Assembly (NCBI GenBank): GCA_902627045.1
Contig: CACOHP010000003.1
Span: 41,001-105,000, forward strand
Direction of reading: 5' to 3'
Length of the DNA stretch: 64,000 bases
Source: an uncultured Pelagibacteraceae bacterium
Lineage (GTDB): Bacteria > Pseudomonadota > Alphaproteobacteria > Pelagibacterales > Pelagibacteraceae
Shown: positions 23,641 to 32,025 of the stretch, piece after piece
How the letters are laid out: each line of letters starts with the position of its first letter
How positions within the stretch are numbered: the stretch's first letter is position 1
Position numbers and translations under genes: made by a program
The notes under the pieces: generated by a model
The model's database searches: none
Told to the model about the DNA's origin: nothing
Seen by the model: only the letters and a program-made list of their open reading frames with translations

Positions 23641-24711
23641 ATGGAATCAGTAATATTAATATTAAATATTTTAATCTTGGTCCTTATTTTAGGAGGAGCC
23701 TTTTACTTTTACCAAAAAAATTCTAAGAAAAAATTAGAAGAAGAAATTGAAGATCAGTCAGAATTATTAGCCAAAAAAGATGAATTAAATGAGTTAAAAT
23801 CAAGCTTTAAAGAGTCTTTCAATCTCATGAGTAAGGAAATTGCCAAAGATATGAGTGGCGCCCTAACTAAAGTAGATGAAAAAGTTGGCAATTTTAATCA
23901 ACAAGTGCAGTTATTAAATCAAAGCCAAGAGGGGATTACTAAAATTTTAGCAGGCGTTAAAAAGTATGGAACTTTAGCTGAATATTCTTTAGATGCTTTA
24001 ATCAAGGATTTGTTACCAGCATCTCAATTTATGACTAATGTGAAAATGAAAGAAGACACTAGTGAAAATGTGGAATTCGCAATCAAGCTGCAAGGTGATG
24101 TGTTAGTGCCTGTAGATTCTCATTTTCCAGTAGAAAAATTCAAAGCTATCACTGATGCATATGATGCAGATGATAAAAAAGCAGTTGCAGATGCTAGAAC
24201 AAAATTAGCAAGTGCATTTAAGGCTAAAGCAAAGAGTGTGATGGAAAAATACATTGTTCCACCTAAAACCTCAAATTTTGCAATAGTGTATGCTCCTACA
24301 GAAAGCCTCTATAAAGAATTAACTGAATACCAAGATCCAAGCACTAAAGAGTTATTAACCCAAGAATTGATGAAAAAATATAAAATAGTAATTTGTGGTC
24401 CAAACACTCTTTCAGCTTATTTACAGTCTTTACACATGGGCTTTCAGTCTCTTAAAATTTCAAAACACGCAACAGAGATTTATGATCATTTAAAAACTAT
24501 AAGTACGAGATTTTCTAGTCATTTTGATAATATTTATAAATTAAGAAAAAAACTTGAAGAGGCCATGACGGTTGTTGATAATTTTGGAAAAGATGCAAGA
24601 TCAATTACTAGAACTTTAGAAAACATAAAAGATCCCGAGCAAGTTGAAAAGGCTGTACTAACAGAGAACGTTGAGAAATTTGTTGAAAGAAATAAACAGC
24701 TCAAAAAATAA
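23641..24711 (+). CDS. rmuC: DNA recombination protein RmuC
   Basis: 356 residues: N-terminal membrane helix (VILILNILILVLILGGAFYF), a coiled-coil region (~30-100) and the RmuC domain with VEFAIKLQGDVLVPVDSHFP (conserved Asp-Ser-His), FAIVYAPTESLY and ICGPNTLSAYLQSLHMGF. RmuC is thought to be a PD-(D/E)XK-fold nuclease limiting rearrangements at inverted repeats. The first of three nucleic-acid-processing genes in a row. Confidence 0.93.
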   Translation: MESVILILNILILVLILGGAFYFYQKNSKKKLEEEIEDQSELLAKKDELNELKSSFKESFNLMSKEIAKDMSGALTKVDEKVGNFNQQVQLLNQSQEGITKILAGVKKYGTLAEYSLDALIKDLLPASQFMTNVKMKEDTSENVEFAIKLQGDVLVPVDSHFPVEKFKAITDAYDADDKKAVADARTKLASAFKAKAKSVMEKYIVPPKTSNFAIVYAPTESLYKELTEYQDPSTKELLTQELMKKYKIVICGPNTLSAYLQSLHMGFQSLKISKHATEIYDHLKTISTRFSSHFDNIYKLRKKLEEAMTVVDNFGKDARSITRTLENIKDPEQVEKAVLTENVEKFVERNKQLKK

Positions 24712-24748
24712 TTTCTTTTTTCACATATTACCGATTATAAGAAATCAC

Positions 24749-25435
24749 ATGCGTTGGAACAAAAAATACAATTATCCATCAAGTTCAAGGGCTACTGAAG
24801 ATGGAATAAGAAGATATGTTTTAGGAGAAGCAAAATTACCAAGTGTAACGTCAATACTTGATGCAACAAAATCTGAGGAAGATAAAGCAGCATTAGCAAA
24901 TTGGCGAGAAAGAACTGGCTATAAAGAAGCAGAGGCAATTACTAAGGCGGCTAGTAGTAGAGGATCTCAAATGCATAGTTATTTAGAGTCTTATCTTTTA
25001 GGAAGAGAAAATTTGAGTTTTTTTGAGGATAATGAACAGTATAAAAAAATGGCGAAAGAAATTATTGATAGAGGATTAACAAACAGGTTAGAGGAAATTT
25101 ATGGGGTTGAGTGCACCATGTATTACCCTGAAAAGTATGCGGGCACCGCAGATTGTATTGGACTATATGAAGGAAAGGAAACCATAATTGACTTTAAACA
25201 ATCTAATAAACCAAAAAAAGTAGAATATATAGATTCTTGGCTACTACAAACCGCAGCCTACTCATTAGCTCATAATGTAGTTTATAATTCTAATATCAAT
25301 GCTTGTGTTATACTTGTTTGCACAGTGGATAATTTGTTTCAAGAATTTAAAATTCAAGGAACTGAATTAATTACCTATCAAAATTTATTTTTGGGAAGAT
25401 TAAAAAAATTTCATGAACTATCAAATTTAAATTAA
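24749..25435 (+). CDS. PD-(D/E)XK exonuclease, MGME1/genome-maintenance exonuclease-like
   Basis: The track start (24671) lies inside rmuC; MRWNKKYNYPSSSRATEDGI (24749) is the sensible start, giving 228 residues. RecB-like nuclease motifs: SRGSQMHSYLE (motif with His), YAGTADCIG (catalytic Asp) and ETIIDFKQSNK (D-x-K), then LLQTAAYSLA (Q-x-x-x-Y motif). The overall size and order resemble the MGME1-type single-strand exonucleases also found in many phages. 8 nt before exonuclease I, so the two are co-translated or at least co-transcribed. Confidence 0.85.
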   Translation: MRWNKKYNYPSSSRATEDGIRRYVLGEAKLPSVTSILDATKSEEDKAALANWRERTGYKEAEAITKAASSRGSQMHSYLESYLLGRENLSFFEDNEQYKKMAKEIIDRGLTNRLEEIYGVECTMYYPEKYAGTADCIGLYEGKETIIDFKQSNKPKKVEYIDSWLLQTAAYSLAHNVVYNSNINACVILVCTVDNLFQEFKIQGTELITYQNLFLGRLKKFHELSNLN

Positions 25436-25443
25436 TTTAGCAG

Positions 25444-26880
25444 ATGGATAAAATTGTAATTTACGATACTGAAACAACTAATAGCACAATTTGGGGCTCA
25501 ATAATTGAGGTTGGTGCAGTCGTAGTTGATAAAAATTTAAAAGAAATTGGAAAACTAAATATTAGGGGCAGAATGCCTGAGGGAGAAGTGCCAAGTGCAA
25601 AGGCATTACTCGTTAATTCAACAAGTATTGATTTATTAACTAAAGGCAATTATTCACACTATGAATTTTTAGGTGCGGTGGAAAATTTTTTTTCAAAAGC
25701 TGGCCCTGCGATGTTTATGGGTTGGTCAAACTTAAATTTTGATAGAAGGATGTTTCATTTTAATTTCTTTAAAGGTAATAGATATCCTTATCTCACTCAC
25801 TCTTCACCAAATCAAGAACACGATGGTTTGCATATTGCAAGGGCAGCACAAACTTTAAACCCAGAAACCTTAAAAACAGAATTGACTGAAGCTGGGAACC
25901 CAAGTCTAGCCTTAGAAGCACTAGCTAGAATGCAAGGATTTGATACTTCCCAGCAACACACTGCTTTTCACGATGCTTATACTTCATTAAAAGTTCTTAG
26001 AATTATAAGAGATAAACATAAAGATAATTGGGATACTTTTCTAAAAACTTCAACAAAGACAAGAGTGGAGACATTACTTACAAATGACGGTATATATTCA
26101 ATCTTTGAAAATGTTAAGGGTAGAAATATGATGTACCTTGCTTGCACTTTACACCCAAAACATTGTTTTCATCCTTCATACGCATCATGGGGATATCTTT
26201 GGGATCTAAGAAGAGATCCCGAACCATTTTTAAATTTATCCGTTAATCAATTGAGAGATATTTTGAAAAAATTTAGTCCTAAAGCACTTAGGGTTCTAAA
26301 AACAAATAAAGCTCCAGTGGTTATGAGTAAAGAGTATGCCTTAAAACAAAAGCCTTATTCAGACTTCGATTTAGCAACAATTCAAAAAAGAGCTAAACTT
26401 GTTAGAGAAAATGAAAATTTCTGTAAAAATATTCAGATTATCCATAGAGAAGCAGCTGAAGAAAAAGCTCAGACCAAAACTCAGGAAGACTTATTACCAG
26501 AGGAAACTTTATACGAAAAATTTATTCCAAATAAAGATACTGCATTATTTAAGACATGGCATAGCTCTTCGTGGGAGGACAAGTTGAGACTACTAGATAA
26601 GTTTCAAGACAAGCGATGTAGTTGGTTCGGTCAAAAAATAATTTATCAAGAAGCACCACAAATCTTACCACCTGACTTATACAAAAATATTAAAAGTGAA
26701 ATTGCCAGAAGAATTTTAAGTAAAAACAAAGAAAAATGGCAAACAATTAATATGGCATATACTGAAATTGATTATTTAAGAGATCAAGCATCAAACAGAG
26801 ATGATGAGGTTGAATTAAAAAAATTGGATGAAATTAACCAATTTATAATGTCAATTGAAAAGAAGTATGAATTTACATAG
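25444..26880 (+). CDS. sbcB: Exodeoxyribonuclease I
   Basis: 3'-5' ssDNA exonuclease of the DEDDh class, 478 aa like E. coli ExoI (475). Motif I IYDTETTNS, motif II GWSNLNFDRRMF, motif III HTAFHDAYTS (His-x4-Asp). The ExoI-specific C-terminal part follows, with CTLHPKHCFHPSYASWGYLWDLR and a helical end. Acts in recombination and mismatch repair. Confidence 0.93.
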   Translation: MDKIVIYDTETTNSTIWGSIIEVGAVVVDKNLKEIGKLNIRGRMPEGEVPSAKALLVNSTSIDLLTKGNYSHYEFLGAVENFFSKAGPAMFMGWSNLNFDRRMFHFNFFKGNRYPYLTHSSPNQEHDGLHIARAAQTLNPETLKTELTEAGNPSLALEALARMQGFDTSQQHTAFHDAYTSLKVLRIIRDKHKDNWDTFLKTSTKTRVETLLTNDGIYSIFENVKGRNMMYLACTLHPKHCFHPSYASWGYLWDLRRDPEPFLNLSVNQLRDILKKFSPKALRVLKTNKAPVVMSKEYALKQKPYSDFDLATIQKRAKLVRENENFCKNIQIIHREAAEEKAQTKTQEDLLPEETLYEKFIPNKDTALFKTWHSSSWEDKLRLLDKFQDKRCSWFGQKIIYQEAPQILPPDLYKNIKSEIARRILSKNKEKWQTINMAYTEIDYLRDQASNRDDEVELKKLDEINQFIMSIEKKYEFT

Positions 26881-27232: not shown

Positions 27233-28497
27233 TTAATATTTAAAAATTCACCACTTAAATACAATGAACCAGTAATTAAAAGCAAATCGTTCTCTTTTAA
27301 GTTAATTGATTGAATGGCTTTTTGAATACTCTCCTTATAAATAACATTAGGTATATCCTTAAATTTTTCTTTTAATTCTTTTCCACTTATCGCATTAGGT
27401 TGATTTGGTATATCAACTGTTATTAAAGATGAAATATTTTTAAAATAACTTATATATTCTTCGTGATTTTTATTAGCCATCATCCCTATAATAACATGTT
27501 TGTTACAATCTAAAGTTTGAAGATATTCATTAAGAACTTTTGCTCCGCCAGGATTATGTGAAGAGTCAAGAATCAGTCTATTATTTTTTACTAAGTTCTT
27601 AAGTTTACCAGATTTAATTTCTTCAAGTCTAGCAATATTGGATGCTTTTTGAACTCCATTTATTATGTGTTGGTCCTTAATTTTTATATCCTCTAAAATT
27701 CTTAATGTTGCAATTGCTGTAGCAGCATTCTGAATTTGAAATTGTCCATTTAAGTTGGGTTTTGGAATTTTTAAACCACCATATTTATCCTCATAATAAA
27801 AGAAATTGTTTTCCTTTAAAACAAAATTGTAATTTTCATTAAAAAAGTATTTATTCGCACTATTATCAGATATATTTTTTTTAATACATTCTACAATTTC
27901 ATTAGAATTTTGTTTAGCAACTACTATATTTGAATTTAGTAAAGAGGAGGTTTTTTCAAAAATTATTCTTTCAATAGTTCTGTCATTTTCTGGCAGCCAG
28001 TCTAAATGATCTTCACTACAAGAGGTAACTATATTACAAAGATTTTTTTTTAAAATATTTACAGCATCTCCTCTTCCAAATAGGCCAAATTCTGCAATCA
28101 CGAGATTTTCTTTATACTTTTTGCATCCATAAAAAAATGCAGCTGTGAGGGCCTCGAAATATGTTAAAGGTTGATGATTATTAACTTCTTCAATTTTAGA
28201 TAATAAATCTGAAAGATTTTCGTCACTGATCATTTCATCATTATAAACAAATCTCTCGTTAATACTCTTTACATGAGGAGATGTGTATATATTACATTTA
28301 ATATTTGCTTCTCTAAGTATAGATCTTAAAAAAGAAATTGTACTCCCTTTCCCATTAGTACCACAGACTTGTATACATTTTATTTCATCCTGTGGATTTC
28401 CTAATTTTTCACAAAGATTTTTTATACGATCTAGGCTAAGATCAATTTCTTTAGGATGCAGCTTTTGTAAGCGATTGACTATCTTCTGAAGTTTCAT
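27229..28497 (-). CDS. folC: Bifunctional dihydrofolate/folylpolyglutamate synthase
   Basis: Mur-ligase-type enzyme adding Glu to dihydropteroate or folates. Nucleotide loop VCGTNGKGSTISFL, YTSPHVKSINERF, FEALTAAFFYGC, ILDSSHNPGGAKVL. 422 aa is normal. The start, matching the conserved LQKLHPKEIDLSLDRIK region, lies 47 nt inside accD; the pair accD-folC is standard in proteobacteria. Confidence 0.95.
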   Translation of the reverse strand: MKLQKIVNRLQKLHPKEIDLSLDRIKNLCEKLGNPQDEIKCIQVCGTNGKGSTISFLRSILREANIKCNIYTSPHVKSINERFVYNDEMISDENLSDLLSKIEEVNNHQPLTYFEALTAAFFYGCKKYKENLVIAEFGLFGRGDAVNILKKNLCNIVTSCSEDHLDWLPENDRTIERIIFEKTSSLLNSNIVVAKQNSNEIVECIKKNISDNSANKYFFNENYNFVLKENNFFYYEDKYGGLKIPKPNLNGQFQIQNAATAIATLRILEDIKIKDQHIINGVQKASNIARLEEIKSGKLKNLVKNNRLILDSSHNPGGAKVLNEYLQTLDCNKHVIIGMMANKNHEEYISYFKNISSLITVDIPNQPNAISGKELKEKFKDIPNVIYKESIQKAIQSINLKENDLLLITGSLYLSGEFLNIN

Positions 28498-29386
28498 TTT
28501 CTCCAGAATTTATAGCAGAATTTTTCTTTAACAATATTGATAATAAAGTTCCAATTTTTTCAGAAAGATCTTTTCTATCAACAATCAAGTCTACAAACCC
28601 AGTTTTTTCAACATATTCACTTTTTTGAAAACCTTCAGGTAATTCTTCTTTAACTGTTCCCTGAATTACTCTTGCGCCAGCAAATGCAATTAAAGCACCA
28701 GGTTCTGCTATATGAATATCACCTAGCATAGCGTACGATGCAGTAATACCACCTGCTGTTGGATCAGTAATACAAACAATGTATGGAAGATTGTTTTTTT
28801 TTAATTCATTTATCGCTAAAGTTGTTCTAGTCATTTGGGATAAAGAAATTAAACTTTCCATCATTCTCATTCCTCCACCAGCACTAACACACAAAAAAGG
28901 AGTTTTATTTTCAATTGCATACTGAATACCATATAAAAATGCTTCGCCTTCAGCAGCAGCCATCGATGCTCCTAAAAAATCAAAATCAGATGCAACAGCT
29001 GTAATTTTGATATCATTGATTGTTCCACAAACAACCATCATTCCACAATCCATGCCAGTTTTTTTTCTGGCACTCTTTAACCTATCTTTGTAAGATTTTG
29101 AGTCAGTCCAGTTCAGTGGATCATCTTTAGGAATTGGAGTTTTAAAAATTTCGTAACTCTTTTCACCAAAAAGAATATCAAACCTTTGTTTCGGTGTAAT
29201 TCTATGATGTTTATTACATTCAGGTTCGGGACATACCCATAAGTTTTTCTTAAGATCTTTTTTTAAGATAGGGCCTTTACAACATGACGTCCAGTCACTA
29301 TTAGCTATGTCTTCCTTTGTAGCTCTTTTGTGAAGAGCGGACTTGATCTTTTCACCAGCTTTAATTATTTTTGTAATCCAATTCAT
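28451..29386 (-). CDS. accD: Acetyl-CoA carboxylase carboxyltransferase subunit beta
   Basis: Carboxyltransferase half of acetyl-CoA carboxylase; partner of AccA at 50.8 kb. Core crotonase-like motifs: KTGMDCGMMVVCGTINDIKI, FDFLGASMAAAEGEAF, SAGGGMRMMES, ITDPTAGGITASYAMLGDI. The N-terminal zinc ribbon is irregular: SCCKGPI (adjacent Cys) and CPEPECNKHH rather than two CxxC pairs, so the zinc site may be altered. 311 aa. Overlaps trpA by 4 nt and folC by 47 nt. Confidence 0.95.
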   Translation of the reverse strand: MNWITKIIKAGEKIKSALHKRATKEDIANSDWTSCCKGPILKKDLKKNLWVCPEPECNKHHRITPKQRFDILFGEKSYEIFKTPIPKDDPLNWTDSKSYKDRLKSARKKTGMDCGMMVVCGTINDIKITAVASDFDFLGASMAAAEGEAFLYGIQYAIENKTPFLCVSAGGGMRMMESLISLSQMTRTTLAINELKKNNLPYIVCITDPTAGGITASYAMLGDIHIAEPGALIAFAGARVIQGTVKEELPEGFQKSEYVEKTGFVDLIVDRKDLSEKIGTLLSILLKKNSAINSGENETSEDSQSLTKAAS

Positions 29387-30183
29387 AAAATTTTATATTT
29401 AAGCTTTTTCACTAAATTAGCAACATTTGTGACAGGATTTTGTCTTTTTTGAATTGAAATAGAAATTACCTTACAAATTGCGCTTCCTACCACCAATCCA
29501 TCAGCTTTTTTCAAGGATTTTATTGATTTTTCTGTAATCCCAAAACCTATCACAACATTTTTTTTTGGATTTATTTTCTTAATTTTAAAGTAATTTGTCA
29601 TAATCTTTTTAGGAGATACATTTAATTTACCTCCTGTAGTAGATAGCATTGATATGAAATAGTTCATAGCATGAGAATCTTTAATTATTTTATTTAGTCT
29701 TTCTTTTGAAGTGGTAGGTGATAAAAGTTGGATAAAATAAATGGATTTTTTTATACATTTTTTTGTAAAAGATTTATTTTCCGGCCAAGGCAAATCGACA
29801 ACTATTAAGCCATTAACTCCAACTTTTTTACATTTTTCTAAAAATTTTTTTTCTCCATACTGAAATATCATATTATAGTAACCCATTAAAATAATGGGTT
29901 TTGAATTTTTATCTTTCTTATATTTTTTTACTATCCAAAAAATATCCTCTATTTTAATTCCATTTTTTATGGCCCTGTATGCACTAGTTTGTATTTGGCT
30001 TCCATCTGCAACTGGTGTGTTATGTGGAACTCCTAACTCTAAAATATCTGCATATTTTGATATAGCATTTAGTATTACCAAAGATTGTTTTTTTGAACTA
30101 TCACCTGCCACAGTATACGTTAGAAGAGCCGGTCTATTTTCTTTTTTAGCTTTTTTAAATGCAAGATCAATTGGGTTAAGCAT
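29383..30183 (-). CDS. trpA: Tryptophan synthase alpha chain
   Basis: Cleaves indole-3-glycerol phosphate and channels indole to TrpB. Catalytic Glu and Asp are retained in ILELGVPHNTPVADG, and IGFGITEKS and VVGSAIC (phosphate site) are present. Residues around them differ from the usual forms: PHNTP for PFSDP/PFTDP and LSTTGGK for the loop TGVTG. I start at MLNPIDLAFKKAKKENRP (30183), overlapping trpB by 8 nt; the track form is 4 residues longer. Confidence 0.92.
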   Translation of the reverse strand: MLNPIDLAFKKAKKENRPALLTYTVAGDSSKKQSLVILNAISKYADILELGVPHNTPVADGSQIQTSAYRAIKNGIKIEDIFWIVKKYKKDKNSKPIILMGYYNMIFQYGEKKFLEKCKKVGVNGLIVVDLPWPENKSFTKKCIKKSIYFIQLLSPTTSKERLNKIIKDSHAMNYFISMLSTTGGKLNVSPKKIMTNYFKIKKINPKKNVVIGFGITEKSIKSLKKADGLVVGSAICKVISISIQKRQNPVTNVANLVKKLKYKIL

Positions 30184-31411
30184 ATTTTCTTCCAAGTCTG
30201 TTCCTCAAAATTTTTTTATCTTTATAAGCGTCACCACAACTATTAACTACAACGATTGTACTCTTGCTCATTTTCTTTGCCTCTCTTATTGCAACAGAAA
30301 AGGCATGACTTGGTTCTAAAGATGGCCTTAGTTTTTCATATTTAGTTACAAGCTTATAAGCTTTTAATGCTTCTTCATCGCTGGCAGCTGTATATCTTGC
30401 TCTTTTAGCGTCCTTAAGAAAACAATGGAGTGGGGAAATTCCTGGGTAGTCAAGTCCTGCAGAAATAGACTCTGTCTCTTCTATTTGCCCATCTGAATCC
30501 TGATTAACGTATTGAGCTGCCCCATGTAAAATTCCAATTTTTGAACCGTAAGTAAGAGGTGCGGCGTGCTTCTTACTTTTTGCAGGTCCACCAGCCTCAA
30601 CTCCGATAAATTCACATTGTTTTTTGTCATAATCCATAAATTCATTCCAAAAACCAAAACTTGAACTACCCCCCCCAACACAATTATAAAGTTTAAGTTT
30701 TTTTGGAATAGAACCAAATTCTTCGATTAATTGGACTTTTAACTCCCTTGATATTTGACTTGTGCTCCATCCACAGATACGAACAAAAACAGCTGGACCT
30801 ACAGTACTTCCAACACACATTGCCGTAGTGTCACAATTTGCAACCCAAAAACGCATACACTCAGAAACAGCATCAACTAAAGTTTGACTTCCTGAATAAA
30901 CAGGTATGACTTCAGCGCCATTTTTTTTCATAGCTCTTACATTTGGTTGTTGTCTTTCAATATCTTTTGCTCCCATAAAAATTTTACATTTTAGGCCAAA
31001 TTTTTTTGCTGCCATACTTAACATTTTACCTGCATATCCAGCGCCAGTGTCTCCACATATAATTTTCTTACCCGAGCGTTTTGCGAGCAAACAATGAACT
31101 GTAGCATTGTATATTTTATGTGCACCACCGTTTGCATCGGACACAACCTTGGACCATATTTGTGCACCTCCCACATGTTTTGTTAAGTTTTCTAATTTTA
31201 TGAAACGAGTTGGGGTTCCGATCCAATTCTTAAAATATTTATCTCTTTCAGCAATAAATTTTTTATCTTTTTTTAGTTTATTAAATAAAATTTCTAGATC
31301 TTCTATAGGCTTTTTTAAAGTCTCAGGAACAAAGTTACCTCCAAATTTACCTCCCCAAAAACCAAGTTTATTTCCCTGATCAATTACTGGTATACCTTTT
31401 TTTAGTTTCAT
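30176..31411 (-). CDS. trpB: Tryptophan synthase beta chain, divergent active site
   Basis: 411 residues, PLP enzyme joining indole and serine. Overall alignment to Salmonella TrpB is good: NGGAHK (PLP Lys99), MGAKDIERQQPNV, CVGGGSSSFGF (phosphate loop), DGQIEETESISAGLDYPGISPLH and LEPSHA (Glu350 equivalent). However, several near-invariant positions differ: GDTGAGYAG replaces AETGAGQHG (catalytic Glu109 to Asp121), NSCGDAYKD replaces NLSGRGDKD (Ser377 to Cys392), KREDL is SKVVSD and GPHPYPTIVR is GPAVFVRICG. The frame is intact between trpF and trpA, so it is expressed; whether chemistry is standard is open. Confidence 0.9.
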   Translation of the reverse strand: MKLKKGIPVIDQGNKLGFWGGKFGGNFVPETLKKPIEDLEILFNKLKKDKKFIAERDKYFKNWIGTPTRFIKLENLTKHVGGAQIWSKVVSDANGGAHKIYNATVHCLLAKRSGKKIICGDTGAGYAGKMLSMAAKKFGLKCKIFMGAKDIERQQPNVRAMKKNGAEVIPVYSGSQTLVDAVSECMRFWVANCDTTAMCVGSTVGPAVFVRICGWSTSQISRELKVQLIEEFGSIPKKLKLYNCVGGGSSSFGFWNEFMDYDKKQCEFIGVEAGGPAKSKKHAAPLTYGSKIGILHGAAQYVNQDSDGQIEETESISAGLDYPGISPLHCFLKDAKRARYTAASDEEALKAYKLVTKYEKLRPSLEPSHAFSVAIREAKKMSKSTIVVVNSCGDAYKDKKILRNRLGRKYA

Positions 31412-32025
31412 ATTTTTGAAGACAAATTTAACAATTTATCAATTCTATTAATATCTTTTTTTCCATTCTCGTCCTCAAGAGCTCCGCTAAGATCAATTAT
31501 AAATTCTTTGTTTTTAAAGCTAGGAATATCATCTATTTGAATATTTCCCGCAATCATTTTATTCAATTTTTTAGATACTCCATTTAGTAGATTGTGATCA
31601 AAACTTTCTGACTTATGGTACCCTTTCGAGTCAAATAGAATTATATCTGATATATCGGAGTAATCTTTATATTTGATAACATCATTTTTATTAGAAACAG
31701 TGATTGCAGAAATTATTTTAATCTTATATTTGAATTTTATTTCCTTTGTTCTAACAGGATCTACGTCGTAAAGTTGATAATAATCAAAATTTAAACTTTT
31801 TATTTTTTCTAAAATTTCATCAGTAGGTTTTACAAGTACAGAGGTAAAGTTCACTTGCTTTCTCTCTACATTAATCAATTTTTTTAATTTTTCATATTCA
31901 ATAAATCTTCTACTTTTTTTATAATTAGTGATAAAGCCGATGAATTTTGGTGGGTATGGATGATTCAAGATAAAATTTAATGTCTTAGGATCTGACACTC
32001 CACAAATTTTTAGGCCTTTGATCAT
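31408..32025 (-). CDS. trpF: Phosphoribosylanthranilate isomerase
   Basis: Beta/alpha-barrel isomerase of tryptophan synthesis; 205 aa. The catalytic Cys is in LKICGVSD and the catalytic Asp in IILFDSKG; KFIGFITNYKKSRRF matches the IGF..SPR segment. Other signatures are degenerate: QLYD for QLHG, MIAGNI for LAGGL, IDLSGALED for VDVSSGVE. Overlaps trpB by 4 nt and pyrF by 4 nt, in the pyrF-trpF-trpB-trpA order. Confidence 0.87.
   Translation of the reverse strand: MIKGLKICGVSDPKTLNFILNHPYPPKFIGFITNYKKSRRFIEYEKLKKLINVERKQVNFTSVLVKPTDEILEKIKSLNFDYYQLYDVDPVRTKEIKFKYKIKIISAITVSNKNDVIKYKDYSDISDIILFDSKGYHKSESFDHNLLNGVSKKLNKMIAGNIQIDDIPSFKNKEFIIDLSGALEDENGKKDINRIDKLLNLSSKI

Follow-up and report, generated by a model that had tools for sequence, protein, structure and literature searches.

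The AETGAGQHG loop and its Glu109 are textbook catalytic elements of the tryptophan synthase beta subunit, TrpB. The role of Glu109 is better put as charge stabilisation at indole N1 (PMC9512447) than as the proton transfer assumed in the original prediction. In the closed Salmonella enzyme, Gln114 of the same loop hydrogen-bonds Asn145 and Arg148 (PMC9512447), and in solved complexes Lys167 of TrpB is contacted by Asp56 of TrpA (PMC6608616). Two described cases of Glu109 replacement would argue against a working enzyme lacking this residue: E109D in Salmonella is, by the title of the study, a change that alters both the specificity for substrates and the catalytic activity (Brzovic 1992, as cited in PMC9512447), and in plant TSB-like proteins a Glu to Ala change accompanies loss of activity (PMC12727527). 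The SAR11 strain HTCC1062 is reported to carry a single trpB, which belongs to a SAR11 cluster and which the authors also considered functional (PMC2395257).

Here, we analyzed a 64,000-nucleotide stretch of DNA from an uncultured Pelagibacteraceae bacterium (the window; GCA_902627045.1, contig CACOHP010000003.1, positions 41,001 to 105,000). It carries a trpB in which these textbook elements are replaced as a set, as they are in most of the very abundant SAR11. Judged from sequence comparisons, this gene most probably encodes the functional beta subunit of the SAR11 tryptophan synthase, with an active site that has been rebuilt and compensated. The genes at the locus are as follows.

28451..29386, minus strand: accD, the flank and border of the exchanged trpBA pair; a conserved neighbour in 20 regions
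29383..30195, minus strand: trpA, the partner; TIGR00262, 206 bits over a cut-off of 102; overlaps the end of trpB
30176..31411, minus strand: trpB, encoding the D109-type beta chain of tryptophan synthase; 411 aa, the coordinates including the stop; no internal stop
31408..32025, minus strand: trpF, phosphoribosylanthranilate isomerase; PF00697, 76.9 bits; overlaps the start of trpB

The gene order is trpF-trpB-trpA-accD-folC, with pyrF also a neighbour, and trpE, trpD, and trpC were found in the same genome. Elsewhere in the window, at 24671-26880, two neighbouring plus-strand ORFs lie upstream of trxA; the second is exonuclease-like by eye, and both may be phage-derived.

In a profile search, the window TrpB matched TIGR00263 over its full length (residues 21-402 on model positions 4-381), scoring 378.7 bits (E 3e-113), whereas the curated cut-off is 392.45. 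Some sister proteins exceed this cut-off, such as that of genome G066 with 403.5 bits. Of the SAR11 TrpBs scored here, about half are missed by profile cut-offs, which their divergence explains. The TrpB2 model TIGR01415 gave 97.6 bits against a cut-off of 518.85. An AlphaFold2 model built from an alignment that included three canonical TrpBs reached a pLDDT of 82 (an alignment of 24 near-identical sequences alone gave only 44), and it superposed on Pyrococcus furiosus TrpB (5dw0) with TM-scores of 0.86/0.91, canonical sequences thus being part of its input. The model confirms the TrpB fold only, not the side-chain geometry of Asp121.

Residues were numbered by alignment to E. coli TrpB (L113) and read in 138 distinct proteins of the same type, hereafter D109. 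The elements of interest in the window are listed below, with the reference position in brackets.

31115..31117, minus strand: codon of Lys99 (= K87), the PLP lysine, retained by alignment; K87 in 138/138
31109..31111, minus strand: codon of Tyr101 (= N89); Tyr in 136/138, canonical Asn invariant
31028..31054, minus strand: substrate-carboxylate loop GDTGAGYAG, residues 120-128 (= A108-G116), replacing AETGAGQHG
30932..30934, minus strand: codon of Ala160 (= R148, which is known to hydrogen-bond Q114); A/S/F/R in the clade, changing with 114
30875..30877, minus strand: codon of Val179 (= K167, the COMM-domain contact of TrpA Asp56); V in 138/138, always with Thr, Ala, or Cys at TrpA 56
30782..30799, minus strand: GPAVFV, residues 205-210, replacing GPHPYP by alignment
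30662..30664, minus strand: codon of Ser250 (= N236), PLP phosphate loop GGGSS; S in 138/138, canonical Asn invariant
30218..30244, minus strand: NSCGDAYKD, residues 390-398, replacing NLSGRGDKD by alignment; contains Cys392 (= S377)

In the substrate-carboxylate loop, Asp121 corresponds to E109, Tyr126 to Q114, and Ala127 to H115. Position 109 is Asp in all 138 proteins, none of which has the catalytic Glu109 of TrpB_1; position 114 is Tyr in 129 and Met in 9, and position 115 is Ala in 130, Phe in 7, and Asn in 1. The change of GRGDKD to GDAYKD amounts to R379D and D381Y. Other catalytic elements are invariant in the 138 proteins, namely Lys87, Thr110-Gly113, Arg141, Asn145, Asp305 (Asp321 in the window), Glu350 (Glu366), Lys382, and Asp383, and this set includes both partners of the closure salt bridge D305-R141.

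These readings bear out the original prediction in that the PLP lysine and the Asp305 and Glu350 equivalents are kept, and that Glu109, Gln114-His115, and GRGDKD are replaced by Asp, Tyr-Ala, and GDAYKD. Its list of changes held but missed N89Y, R148A, K167V, and N236S. The KREDL and GPHPYP segments, which it took to be lost, are in fact substituted (KVVSD and GPAVFV), and no gap appears at these positions in the phmmer alignment. The Ser377 to Cys392 substitution is present, as it had claimed, but is not unusual: Cys377 occurs in 138/138 D109 proteins and also in the great majority of the sampled alphaproteobacterial TrpBs with the canonical motif, Ser being found only in L167 and L168. Cysteine is thus usual at this position in Alphaproteobacteria and is no part of the oddity. 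Nor are the changes enriched in the active site, as 5 of the 27 listed active-site positions had changed versus 38 of 119 other invariant positions; it is therefore the whole TrpB that is divergent and not the active site alone.

The D109 TrpB is a trait of the Pelagibacterales lineage, with Asp109, Val167, Ser236, and Cys377 fixed in the 138 proteins. The D109 TrpBs form one clade (support 100/100, stem 1.41) that is 39-44% identical to canonical TrpBs, versus about 70% for canonical alphaproteobacterial TrpBs among themselves. A TrpB was detected at E<=1e-30 in 187 of 198 Pelagibacterales genomes, and in all but nine of the 187 at E<=1e-100. Taking the latter value as D109 type, which is a classification by score, about 95% of the TrpB-bearing genomes of the order have it. 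In the named genome collection, every one of the best 80 relatives of the window TrpB is from Pelagibacteraceae, and the closest relative outside the order but within the class is 47% identical. Among 399 genomes of the phylum, E<=1e-99 was reached only in the window's genome and in one more of the same family. No D109 relative was found on viral contigs.

A canonical TrpB encoded at another locus would have undercut the original prediction, and there is none in the window's genome (82% complete), where the other weak match is a different PLP enzyme. The same holds for 13 genomes of D109 type with a completeness of 97-100%: each of them reads GDTGAGYAG and contains no second TrpB. In some Pelagibacterales, a TrpB2-like protein of 454-475 aa is encoded as an addition to the trpA-adjacent trpB or apart from it (L190, L191, G020, G023, G024, G045); the two that were read have ETGAGQWG. 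In six genomes that are 90-96% complete (G112, G125, G182, G183, G210, G128), IGPS is present and trpB and trpA were not found, reflecting either true loss or, as is likely, assembly gaps at one locus. Finally, in the single-contig relative G178 (contig C1, 517482-518248 and 930231-930997), trpA and trpC (IGPS) each consist of two overlapping fragments that differ in reading frame (L213, L214, L231), owing either to an error in sequencing or to a recent loss of function of the pathway.

The partner subunit has changed along with TrpB. The window TrpA keeps E49, D60, T183, and G184, and across the partners read E49 is always present, and D60 is replaced in a single one, by Glu. In the window TrpA, FSD (54-56) has become HNT, and loop 6 G(I/V)TG has become STTG. 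The TrpAs paired with D109 TrpBs also form one clade (100/100, stem 1.66). At the TrpB167/TrpA56 contact, K-D is found in 29/29 canonical pairs and Val with Thr, Ala, or Cys in D109 pairs. At 114/148, canonical proteins combine Gln with Arg or Lys, and in the D109 clade we read Y-A/S in 129, M-F in 7, and M-R in 2. As these are few events, many of them on one long stem branch, the paired changes are suggestive and not statistical proof that those at 114/148, at TrpB167/TrpA56, and in loop 6 are compensatory. The subtype with Met114, Arg148, and Asn89 (G043, G179) is the first branch among the D109 proteins. This branching is consistent with E109D, H115A, K167V, and N236S having preceded Q114Y, R148A, and N89Y, an order that is tentative as both members have long branches.

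A non-D109 TrpB always comes with a non-D109-type TrpA, according to the trees and residues of both. The pairs concerned are of CESGAGQH type in G012, G072, G022, G126, and G191, of ETGASM type in G115 and G220, of ETGAGAH type in G050, and canonical in G039. Compared with the window, G012 has flanks that are 62-85% identical but a TrpB and TrpA that are only 39% and 29% identical; conversely, G061 has flanks of 32-51% identity around a TrpB of 74% and a TrpA of 64%. This contrast indicates that trpB and trpA move jointly into one site. The D109 and E109 pairs thus replace each other in place, which is the strongest indirect argument for an equivalent function of both.

Some of the other types have peculiarities of their own. 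The CESGAGQH-type TrpB (L006, L172-L175) has Gln or Thr instead of D305, and its TrpA has Glu for the catalytic Asp60. The ETGASM-type TrpB (L185, L186) has Lys at 141, lacks Lys382, and is accompanied by its own TrpA lineage.

The reaction in SAR11 would proceed as follows. PLP on Lys99 would convert L-serine to aminoacrylate, to which indole from the adjacent TrpA would be added to give L-tryptophan, with Asp121 presumably standing in for Glu109 in holding indole N1. The network of Gln114-Arg148, His115, the Arg379 loop, and Asn89 would have been rebuilt jointly with the TrpA-facing contact (Lys167/TrpA Asp56 and loop 6), probably early in Pelagibacterales, so that TrpB and TrpA would now be a matched pair, exchangeable in place for an E109-type pair. 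We infer from sequence that Asp121 does the job of Glu109 and that the accompanying changes compensate for it, and the same qualification applies to the kinetics. It seems rather unlikely that the mechanism is a distinct one, in which aspartate-activated indole, other TrpA coupling contacts, and an altered or wider substrate range might add one beta-replacement.

The original prediction had left two alternatives, a lineage-specific compensated active site and a changed reaction. The compensated site is supported by order-wide fixation, a sole TrpB, the TrpA co-change, the paired contact substitutions, selection, and in-place exchange. A changed or widened reaction, in which Asp109 and the rebuilt loop accept another nucleophile (a thiol or a phenol) besides or instead of indole, is quite improbable and found no support here. 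It would agree with the altered specificity that the title of the Salmonella E109D study names (Brzovic 1992, via PMC9512447), with the use of phenols by engineered E105 mutants (PMC12727527), and with the argument that multifunctional enzymes are favoured in the streamlined SAR11 (PMC8437039). However, this protein is the sole TrpB of complete genomes and lies in a trp operon, and HTCC1062 already has cysK, cysE, and metC (PMC5069961). Above all, a compensated synthase is favoured over a changed reaction because trpBA is exchanged with E109-type pairs in place. A specific role as cysteine synthase was also considered for the window TrpB and judged unlikely; cysK and cysE have been reported in HTCC1062 (PMC5069961).

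The plant TSB-like proteins, which became inactive through loss of the catalytic glutamate (PMC12727527), provide a precedent for a pseudoenzyme that makes no tryptophan and just activates TrpA, tryptophan being imported. Here, however, Glu is replaced by Asp and not by Ala, Ser, or Pro, D305 is retained, the PLP site is conserved, and complete D109 genomes have no second active TrpB. In addition, HTCC1062 was grown on glycine, glycine betaine, pyruvate, DMSP, and vitamins, tryptophan not being among the listed additions (PMC5069961). Indeed, trpB is under strong purifying selection, with a median dN/dS of about 0.03 across the 55 close pairs whose dS was finite, a rough value as dS is near saturation. 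A decaying gene or a sequencing artefact confined to one genome might be suspected from the 82% completeness of the assembly and a score just under the NCBIfam cut-off. This is refuted by the 138 distinct proteins that share these residues and come from independent assemblies, single-contig genomes among them. Because of trpE/D/C, the TrpA catalytic residues, the low dN/dS, and the growth of HTCC1062, a pseudoenzyme is very unlikely, and a decaying gene is as well.

The D109 TrpB is thus a real and very probably functional variant of tryptophan synthase that defines its clade. It would represent a natural solution to a substitution that alters the activity of the Salmonella enzyme, which allows a test of what compensates, and it could be a new scaffold from which to develop TrpB biocatalysts. 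The joint exchange of trpB and trpA at a single place in the chromosome is, moreover, a natural experiment.

With canonical TrpB_1 (TIGR00263; Salmonella, E. coli, P. furiosus), the SAR11 protein shares full-length homology, the fold, the PLP lysine (AHK), the TGAG loop, D305, R141, N145, E350, and an adjacent TrpA with E49 and D60; it differs by E109D, Q114Y, H115A, R148A, K167V, N236S, R379D, and N89Y. TrpB2 (TIGR01415) is a PALP-fold relative but keeps ETGAGQWG. The plant TSB-like pseudoenzyme (PMC12727527) is likewise a TrpB lineage with a replaced catalytic glutamate and a TrpA partner, yet there the glutamate has become Ala, Ser, or Pro, the D305 equivalent has become Glu, and an active TSB coexists, and none of this was found with the D109 TrpB. 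In the literature searched, we found no report of active-site changes in SAR11 TrpB, of TrpA co-change, or of trpBA exchange, nor a kinetic or genetic study of any SAR11 TrpB. The closest described system is the SAR11 cluster of trpB_1 (Kagan et al. 2008, PMC2395257), which is the same group, with the single P. ubique trpB in trpF-trpB-trpA-accD-folC. In its available text, that study describes the distinct branch and gene order and says nothing of altered active-site residues, a co-changed TrpA, or exchange of the pair. The branch itself has been known since 2008.
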